A stretch of DNA of 20,514 bases from a virus. The notes under the pieces were generated by a model, which had not been told where the DNA came from, did no database searches, and worked only from the letters and a program-made list of their open reading frames with translations. The position numbers were made by a program, and so were the translations under genes. Shown here in pieces: positions 6,132 through 7,386 of the stretch (position 1 is the first letter of the stretch; every line of letters starts with the position of its first letter). Where the stretch lies: the IMG/VR virus record IMGVR_UViG_3300024301_000118, positions 1-20,514 of that record; one strand, written 5' to 3'.

Positions 6132-6380
6132 TTAAAATTTAGGCATCTTCATTGAAGGCGCTTTCATTTGTGGGATCTTAGGCATCGCAGGCGTTTTATA
6201 CTTAGAACTCATTTGATTCTGTTGTTGTGCCTGTTGTTCTTCTTGATCCTTATTCTGATTATTCTTCTCTTTAATGTAATCCGACAGGTTCTTAACATAA
6301 TACCAATACTCGTAGTAGTATAAATTATCAACTTCTGAAGGTTGCATTCTGAGATGTATGCCCAGATAGAACTTAGTCTT
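6132..6380 (-). CDS. +1-frame extension of the tail assembly chaperone
   Basis: This frame is open from 6500 but has no ATG before 6347. Its meaningful part follows the stop of the gp26-like gene: 82 codons, reading from KTKFYLGIHLRMQPSEVDNL through YYYEYWYYVKNLSDYIKEKN. A Gln/Glu-rich stretch and a Pro/Met/Lys tail (MPKIPQMKAPSMKMPKF) follow. A +1 shift on CTT TAA would join it to residue 335 of the upstream protein, giving about 417 residues. Long-tailed phages often make such an extended chaperone to load the tape measure protein, and the tape measure gene is next. The alternative is a separate 71-residue protein from the ATG at 6347, which has no good leader and would drop the FYLGIHLR helix. 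Confidence 0.65.
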   Translation of the reverse strand, partial: KTKFYLGIHLRMQPSEVDNLYYYEYWYYVKNLSDYIKEKNNQNKDQEEQQAQQQNQMSSKYKTPAMPKIPQMKAPSMKMPKF

Positions 6381-6393
6381 AAAGTAATTCTCC
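6378..6393 (-). promoter_or_regulatory. Putative +1 programmed frameshift site (CTT TAA)
   Basis: Minus-strand bases read GGAGAATTACTTTAAG. The zero-frame codons are GAA TTA CTT TAA; slipping from CTT to TTT places AAG in the A site. CTT before a stop codon is the known +1 slippery element of bacterial prfB (CTT TGA). A GGAGA five bases upstream of CTT recalls the prfB stimulatory Shine-Dalgarno-like sequence, though prfB spacing is three bases. The frame shift needed to reach the downstream coding sequence is exactly +1. Confidence 0.6.
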
Positions 6394-7386
6394 AGCGAGA
6401 TCTGAAATAATGAAAAGACTTTTGATGCCACCTGGGAAATCAAGAGGGGCTTTCGCGATCTCCCCTTCGTATTCCATTTCAAGTGTTGTTTCAACTCCAA
6501 TTTTCATTTTCTCAGCAAGTCTATAGATAACCATAAACTTATTTTGATCCCATGATTTGTAATCAACTTCTAAGTTAAAGATTTTAGGTAGATTTACTTG
6601 TCTCCAATCTGGTGTGATATAAGGTAGAACTTGGATAAAGGCTTTATCAAACTCAACTTCTTTTTCTTGACGATCCTTTAGGTATTTAGTAATTTCTTGC
6701 ATAACACCGATTGAAGGCGGACGCATTCTAACTTCACCAGCAGATCTAGTCTTAATAACATATGTTCTTTCTTTAGAACTGTAATAAGCCTCGATTTCAT
6801 TAGGAACCTGTGTAGCTACTAAATATCTAGATGATAATTCGATATCAACTGGAATTTTGCTGTTTTCAGTTTTACCCTTAAGAATCAATTTGTTTTCTGG
6901 TTCAGGGAAAGTAAGATCTCTAATAGCCAATAGAATTACAATTCTATCTTCTTCTAAAATATCTTTATAAGATAGTCTCTTTTCATCCACTGTTAATTGA
7001 GTACACATTTCTACAATGTGGTTCAATTTCTCTTCCATATCGATATAGTTGTTTTCATCCATAGTAGAAAAATGTCTAATCTCAGATGCTCTTGCAGATC
7101 TAATCTTAATTACTGTACCATTAGGGTAAAATTTACCTTTAGATGGTAATTCTTCTTGATCTAGAACCATCCATCCTAAGAATTGGTCCGCAGACTTTTC
7201 TGGTCTTGCTTGTCCAAAATTGTCCATATTAACTCTACCTAATCCATTGGATTCAACTGCGCTCAACATTTCTACTGAAACATCTTCAACTGTCGAATCA
7301 TTAGAAGTCTGTGGATTATTAATTTGATCCCTAGCGTCTAGCATTGCTTTTGCCGCTTCTTCTTTTTTGTTTAATTCTTCGCTCAT
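6379..7386 (-). CDS. gp26-like baseplate/tail assembly protein (T4_baseplate family-like), zero-frame chaperone
   Basis: 335 residues. After a low-complexity acidic N-terminus, residues 79-100 read ELPSKGKFYPNG then TVIKIRSARA. This beta hairpin is typical of the T4 gp26-like family (T4_baseplate), proteins needed for baseplate hub and tail assembly. Residues about 100-170 form the helical part with an LLAIRDLTFPEPEN segment. T4 gp26 is about 208 residues; this one has a longer N-terminus. It starts in an ATGA overlap with the ribbon-helix-helix gene and ends at CTT TAA, where a +1 shift would add 82 residues. Its place before the tape measure gene agrees with a chaperone role. The family call is from memory of the motif. 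Confidence 0.72.
   Translation of the reverse strand: MSEELNKKEEAAKAMLDARDQINNPQTSNDSTVEDVSVEMLSAVESNGLGRVNMDNFGQARPEKSADQFLGWMVLDQEELPSKGKFYPNGTVIKIRSARASEIRHFSTMDENNYIDMEEKLNHIVEMCTQLTVDEKRLSYKDILEEDRIVILLAIRDLTFPEPENKLILKGKTENSKIPVDIELSSRYLVATQVPNEIEAYYSSKERTYVIKTRSAGEVRMRPPSIGVMQEITKYLKDRQEKEVEFDKAFIQVLPYITPDWRQVNLPKIFNLEVDYKSWDQNKFMVIYRLAEKMKIGVETTLEMEYEGEIAKAPLDFPGGIKSLFIISDLAGELL

Follow-up and report, generated by a model that had tools for sequence, protein, structure and literature searches.

A gp26-like tail gene in the window (the whole 20,514-nucleotide stretch of DNA that was analysed) very probably gives rise, in a virus of bacteria, to two forms of a tail-building helper protein by a slip of the reading frame. 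Judged from the sequences, the slip looks like the rare two-base backward kind and would lie about 21 codons before the CTT TAA at which the gene ends. We propose, with a probability of roughly 0.6, that this gene encodes a T4-group tail chaperone with a Shine-Dalgarno-stimulated -2 frameshift at GCC_CCT_CTT, a counterpart of lambda G / G-T. Comparison with relatives supplies the homology, the gene order, the constraint on both frames, a selected Shine-Dalgarno-like element and an invariant tandem -2 site; from the sequences we infer that shifting occurs, that it is by -2 and not by +1, how efficient it is, and that the products serve as chaperones.

According to the proposed mechanism, most ribosomes would complete the 335-residue gp26-like protein and a minority would slip back two bases at GCC_CCT_CTT, the P-site tRNA-Pro moving from CCU to CCC and the A-site tRNA-Leu from CUU to CUC. 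Reading would then continue with TTG ATT TCC CAG and yield a protein of 418 residues whose C-terminal domain is helical and gp51-like and whose predicted junction peptide is APLLISQVASK. Behind the ribosome, the 16S rRNA tail would pair with the Shine-Dalgarno-like GGAG located 12 bases upstream, and this pairing would aid the slip.

The gene, its shifted frame and their protein families

The features discussed are collected in the table, with codons numbered backwards from the zero-frame stop. At its 3' end the gp26-like gene reads GGA GAA TTA CTT TAA G on the minus strand, and genes for tail-tube, tail-sheath and large-terminase proteins lie upstream of it. As the initial annotation had observed, the +1 frame past CTT TAA is open for 82 codons (KTKFYLGIHLRMQPSE..., its stop ending at 6132) and reaches to just before an ORF presumed to encode the tape measure, for which Pfam and PHROG profile matches gave no significant family.

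Table. Features of the gp26-like gene and its surroundings in the window
Feature	Coordinates	Strand	Description
Zero-frame gp26-like gene, 335 codons	7386..6379	minus	putative tail assembly chaperone, baseplate hub assembly family; ends CTT TAA
Internal Shine-Dalgarno-like element AAGGGGAGA	6459..6467	minus	core GGAG at 6463-6460; 12 bases before CCT
Proposed slip site GCC_CCT_CTT, codons -23 to -21	6442..6450	minus	candidate for tandem -2 re-pairing, CCT to CCC and CTT to CTC
Shifted-frame extension	6132..6443	minus	103 codons and stop after the predicted -2 slip; gp51-like 'baseplate hub assembly catalyst' domain LISQVASKVFSLFQISLENYFKTKF...
Two-frame overlap, proposed site to zero-frame stop	6379..6441	minus	constraint on both frames
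Alternative slip site CTT TTC, codons -12/-11, context AGT_CTT_TTC	6412..6417	minus	+1 (CTT to TTT) or -2 (TTC to TTT)
CTT TAA, site of the initial annotation	6379..6384	minus	zero-frame terminator, judged not to be the slip site
Downstream ORF, 1243 codons	2325..6056	minus	taken as tape measure from position and length

The gp26-like protein of the window matches phrog_36717 (function unknown; E 1.3e-24), and a Pfam search with both frames of the window gave no match; its relative L001, 43% identical, scores 29.9 bits against PF12322 (T4_baseplate), for which the gathering score is 24.5. The downstream frame matches phrog_634 ('baseplate hub assembly catalyst', E 2.9e-5), and in a profile comparison its domain matched the gp51 domain of the cyanophage family Kyanoviridae with a probability of 97.3% (E 1.7e-11). 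The window gp26-like profile matched Kyanoviridae gp26 weakly, with a probability of 3.6%, and neither T4 gp26 nor T4 gp51 gave a match in the profile comparison. AlphaFold modelled the read-through protein, joined as a +1 at codon -12 and not at the -2 site, with confidence (mean pLDDT 83) and with a helical extension. A fold search with this model matched viral baseplate hub proteins; the PDB fold search with it returned 0 matches at E 0.001 or better, and the PDB sequence search reached a best E of 0.09, nothing significant.

Relatives of the gp26-like gene

Scanning viral contigs with the window protein provided the best 80 of 131 relatives, at 67-100% identity. An alignment scan added L182-L261, mostly more distant relatives and the best 80 of at least 225; two further scans contributed the best 80 of 303 and the best 80 of 276 relatives, and a scan with L001 as query gave one locus. 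The same contigs recur across scans, and the gene-end count covers 112 distinct sequences among 241 loci; from one analysis to another the number of distinct sequences runs from 109 to 120, as the lengths of the sequence windows and the filters vary. Four loci that lack the gene end (L048, L139, L231 and L259) were left out, as were sequence windows with N. L182, L218 and L229, which carry an insertion or a separate gene, were excluded from the constraint, slip-site, Shine-Dalgarno-pairing and clade analyses, and genes whose match spanned fewer than 240 codons were dropped from the Shine-Dalgarno-pairing, tandem-site and clade-tree analyses. Re-pairing was judged by rules that we set ourselves, which allow wobble, with G-U in the first and third positions.

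Phage records account for 11 loci overall. Seven of those opened have Bacteroidota hosts (two Chryseobacterium phages, one Flavobacterium phage, two Tenacibaculum phages and two Lak phages of Prevotella), and the others are PAU, labelled as a Sphingomonas phage, and three uncultured phages (L001, L008 and L009). The Lak phages (L006 and L007) and the 735 kb uncultured phage L009 keep the gp26-like protein with a junction that looks different, and L009 has additional residues ahead of the VFSVF motif.

Conservation of the +1 frame around CTT TAA

CTT TAA and the same +1 frame recur in 79 of 79 close relatives (the best 80 of 131, minus L048, which is cut before the gene end; five of the contigs end inside the +1 frame), which rules out the sequencing error that the initial annotation had allowed for. 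That annotation took CTT TAA as the place of the frame change, and the loss of CTT-stop with the frame still open as evidence to the contrary. Across the 112 distinct relatives the gene ends in CTT TAA in 104, in TTA TAA in seven and in ATT TAA in one; 111 of them have no +1-frame stop within the last 11 codons. CTT-stop is lost in eight of them, and in seven, which end in TTA TAA, the frame is open; the eighth is L182, which carries a separate ATG gene. Distant phages end in ATT TAA (MA9V-1 and MA9V-2), TCT TAA (PAU), TTA TAA (pT24) or TTA TGA (PTm1) and keep the +1 frame, which before the zero-frame stop reads FSLFQIQLTNFF, FSLIRVPMTNYY, FSLIQLPSLRNFL and alike.

Upstream of the stop the +1 frame is conserved as protein (SLFQISLENYF). 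When its residues were compared with synonymous shuffles (60 representatives), codons -11 to -5 gave z values of 8.3 to 39.9, codon -15 gave 15.8 and codon -13 gave 9.8, and codons -24 to -16 lay between -1.2 and 5.1. Further upstream, codons -35 and -32 reached 5.8 and 7.2, and codons -27 and -26, which correspond to the Shine-Dalgarno-like element, 15.0 and 13.4. Because this protein conservation covers at least 11 codons before the stop, ribosomes appear to have shifted before they reach CTT TAA, and because the +1 frame needs TTT AAG (Phe-Lys) there, we regard CTT TAA as a by-product.

The prfB-like +1 shift at CTT TAA that was initially proposed, with SLFIISDLAGELLK as its predicted peptide, is therefore very improbable. 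It could draw on the frequency of CTT TAA (104/112 relatives), on CUU-stop being the known +1 site of prfB, on the AGGAGGUAUCUUUGAC that a passage of PMC8710568 gives for Flavobacterium prfB, and on the GGAGA just upstream, which is present in the window, albeit in only 78 of the 112 distinct relatives. Against it stand the seven TTA TAA relatives with an open frame, a +1-frame protein constraint that starts at least 11 codons before the stop, and the Phe-Lys by which CTT TAA is forced. Moreover, the GGAG-to-CTT spacing is one base more than in F. johnsoniae prfB (same passage of PMC8710568), and the prfB stop is TGA in >99% of genomes and TAA in the rest, according to an excerpt of PMC12421855. 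On the grounds that the TTA TAA relatives keep the frame and that the constraint begins so far upstream, we rejected CTT TAA as the slip site. The comparison gives good support to a programmed frameshift fusing the gp26-like gene with the downstream frame, but none to the site and the prfB-like mechanism that had been attached to it.

A tandem -2 site in the window clade

The window clade was chosen from codons -240..-41 only, that is, without the last 40 codons, as the 56 of 120 sequences whose protein identity to the window reaches 70% or more along this stretch. GCC_CCT_CTT is present in 56/56, and GCC CCT CTT occurs in none of the other 64 (<60% identity). In a tree of the same codons all 56 carriers of the motif cluster together to the exclusion of every other sequence (support 0.857). 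As the clade members are related, 56/56 does not stand for 56 independent events; the clade comprises eight lineages below 80% nucleotide identity. The motif is likewise found in all 41 distinct close relatives of the window-protein scan (best 80 of 131) and is missing from the 42nd sequence, L001. Five of the 10 nearest outsiders (55-60% identity) permit tandem -2 re-pairing if first-position G-U is accepted.

At GCC_CCT_CTT, the conserved site of the window clade, -2 re-pairing of both tRNAs is possible. In the tandem-site analysis, where, as in the codon-constraint and Shine-Dalgarno-pairing analyses, the window clade was defined by the motif GCC CCT CTT itself, the pair -22/-21 is the sole codon pair among the last 240 at which every member has a tandem -2 site. 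Upstream of codon -26, such sites make up 13 of 11928 codon pairs (0.11%) in the 56 window-clade genes, and the chance of the site given Ala-Pro-Leu and the codon usage of the clade is 0.0043. A +1 shift at CTT_G (codon -21) would give one residue fewer (APLISQVASK); AAA_A at -14 and TTT_C at -19 were considered as further +1 candidates.

The codon-constraint analysis covered 33 representatives of 50 window-clade sequences and 44 of 61 from sister clades. In the window clade third bases are near-invariant from codon -23 to -1, barring codons -20 and -2 (TTA/CTA) and single exceptions. GCC is rare, at 37 of 608 Ala codons, and stands at codon -23 in 33/33 representatives of the motif-defined clade. 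Stops in the +1 frame occur at codon -25 in 6/33 representatives, with none from -24 on. Lys at codon -24 is also always AAA (29/29, with another residue in 4/33), which blurs the boundary of the conserved block a little. RNA folding of the window sequence immediately 3' of CTT TTC and of the stop revealed no stable structure (z values of 0.28 and 0.38), and in the stretch from the Shine-Dalgarno-like element to codon -12 a search for conserved hairpins across 39 sequences gave 0 pairs; single-sequence folds of that stretch suggested hairpins whose registers shift.

An internal Shine-Dalgarno-like element

Over codons -31..-23 of the window clade, the best duplex with the anti-Shine-Dalgarno sequence has a value of -7.87 versus -4.92 (sd 0.30) for synonymous shuffles (z -10.0), the strongest mean of the last 240 codons; in the sister clades the corresponding values are -10.57 and -4.98 (z -19.4). 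The element occupies codons -29 to -27 in the window clade, as GGGGAGA or AAGGAGAG, and codons -27 to -25 in the sister clades, where it is commonly GAGGAGGT. Between GGAG and CCT there are 12 bases in the window and 14 in the members with AAGGAGAG. By hand count, the element of the sister clades lies 16 bases from TTT_C and 37 from CTT TTC; the sister-clade GAGGAGGT (for example in L193 and L241) is strongly selected and has no re-pairing slip site at the usual distance. In Bacteroidota the anti-Shine-Dalgarno sequence is occluded on the ribosome, and in the Chryseobacterium group it is altered, as stated in parts of PMC8710568; that of the window's host may be altered as well.

Alternative slip site and a separate downstream gene

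A shift 9-10 codons further downstream, at AGT_CTT_TTC, would be either +1 (CTT to TTT) or -2 (TTC to TTT, the P site re-pairing partly or fully), with SLSLFQISLENYFK and SLFSLFQISLENYFK as the respective junction peptides, and the upstream block would then act as a stimulator or be constrained for another reason. We consider this unlikely, even though CTT TTY or TTT TTC occupies -12/-11 in 88 of 109 sequences, codon constraint in the sister clades sets in around -15 to -11, a tandem -2 site occurs more often here than anywhere else in them (full form in 27/64), and in the zero-frame alignment the position corresponds to TTT TTC at the -1 site of Kyanoviridae (SLF versus SFF). The site is absent from 21 of the 109 sequences although their +1 frame is open: neither +1 at -12 nor -2 at -11 re-pairs in them, all 21 have TTT_C at -19, and some offer other candidate sites too. 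The window clade, with AGT before CTT, forms only 2/3 P-site pairs for a -2 slip, the Shine-Dalgarno-like element is about 40 bases off in the window, and the invariant GCC CCT CTT together with codons -23 to -13 of the window clade would be left unexplained. A tandem -2 site at -22/-21 is found in 5/64 sister-clade sequences, and the unrelated position -79 has 11. Since the sister clades are without GCC_CCT_CTT and 21/109 sequences are without CTT TTC re-pairing, there is no one slip site for the whole family.

Less probable again, and by our estimate distinctly so, is an arrangement with no frameshift, in which the downstream part would be a separate, translationally coupled gene starting within the overlap (in the window clade, at TTG -21 or GTG -17). 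GTG stands at -17 of the +1 frame in 33/33 window-clade representatives, some ATG, GTG or TTG is present in the open +1 stretch upstream in 94/112 sequences, and in L182 stops interrupt the overlap and a new ATG follows four bases past the zero-frame stop. However, in 18/112 sequences the +1 frame is free of ATG, GTG and TTG from its last stop up to codon -11, and on this ground independent starts in the overlap were rejected as a general explanation. In addition, the window-clade member L245 lacks the TTG; GGAG lies 16 bases from the TTG in the window and further from the GTG, a spacing too far for normal initiation; and the slippery heptamer is kept in 53/53 Kyanoviridae, some of which also have an ATG just after the stop. 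In L182 itself (positions 2240-2660) the gp51-like part is a separate gene with its own ATG, an A-rich leader and the same domain, and this locus is a natural control for frame fusion.

The gp26 and gp51 genes in Kyanoviridae and T4

Among the Kyanoviridae loci examined (L094-L100 and L262-L341), gp26 stops a few bases after TTT TTC, and it is the -1 frame that carries the domain onwards. An in-frame T_TTT_TTC is shared by 53/53 distinct sequences (from the best 80 loci), with the -1 domain recognised by motif search in 40 and by eye in 13. Six of seven annotated records carry T_TTT_TTC, and Melnitz-3 (L096) has T_TTT_TTT; no frameshift is annotated in these seven records, six of which list two separate genes and one gp26 alone. 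A Shine-Dalgarno-like element is found in the 24 bases before T_TTT_TTC (z -8.8, 43 representatives); GGAG lies 12 bases before TTT in the five sequences inspected for it, and the codon involved is GAG in 25/43. In some Kyanoviridae an ATG sits just past the stop, and for this reason coupling may add to shifting there. In T4 (L093, NC_000866), genes 26 and 51 are on opposite strands and hence not joinable by a frameshift; an ancestral gp26/gp51 joint, if there was one, was broken in T4.

Taken with the proposed -2 shift at GCC_CCT_CTT, these loci raise the possibility, to which we give even odds, of a gp26/gp51 frameshift in the T4 group. It would be -1 at T_TTT_TTC in Kyanoviridae and a tandem -2 in this clade, whose named relatives mostly infect Bacteroidota, with similar Shine-Dalgarno-like spacing; the joint would have switched between -1 and -2 (perhaps +1), with a separate gene in L182.

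Comparison with known systems

Tailed phages use -1, -2 or +1 shifts for tail products, with phage Mu among the -2 cases, and tail-chaperone frameshifting is described as widely conserved in long-tailed phages 'except T4' (passages of the review PMC5009743). According to an excerpt of PMC10885494, prfB accounts for every CUU-stop +1 case in RECODE; part of PMC8570332 mentions a chaperone frameshift in phage G, and passages of PMC7412058 mention frameshifting for dnaX only. Searches of open-access papers showed no report of gp26/gp51 frameshifting, which we take as weak evidence of novelty. Two T4-related branches bear the chaperone-frameshift signature in gp26/gp51, whereas in T4 itself the two genes have opposite orientations. 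If our reading is true, it adds a rare -2 site, offers a natural series on how a frameshift signal changes direction, and means that records annotating gp26 and gp51 as two genes need correcting. Should the hosts be Bacteroidota, the shift would occur though their ribosomes hide the anti-Shine-Dalgarno sequence and rarely initiate with it, which would suggest that Shine-Dalgarno pairing is used during elongation outside prfB.

The -2 shift of phage Mu is in a tail gene, and stimulation of the dnaX kind relies on a Shine-Dalgarno-like element placed some 10-14 bases ahead of the slip. The internal element of the window, 12 bases before the proposed site, is in the dnaX range. With phage Mu the window would share a -2 shift in a tailed phage (a passage of PMC5009743); the candidate site of the window is GCC_CCT_CTT, behind a Shine-Dalgarno-like element, and its phage is of the T4 group. 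The CTT before the stop and the purine-rich stretch upstream resemble the +1 shift site of prfB (release factor 2), but the window family has no universal CTT-stop, and its shifted frame is conserved before the stop.

T4 gp26/gp51 may be linked to the window by the PF12322 family, through the relative L001, and by the shared gp26/gp51 names, whereas the T4 genes lie on opposite strands and gave no profile match. The gp26/gp51 of Kyanoviridae (S-PM2, Syn19 and others) resemble the window more broadly, in the homologous C-terminal domain, the gene order, the upstream Shine-Dalgarno-like element and a predicted shift at the gp26 end; their downstream frame is -1 at T_TTT_TTC, in contrast to the +1/-2 of the window. 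Like lambda G / G-T, the window gene would give two products, the longer with a C-terminal domain in another frame (as described in a section of PMC5009743), and it lies beside the presumed tape measure; lambda shifts by -1, whereas the shift in the window would be net +1/-2 and concern gp26/gp51-like proteins.
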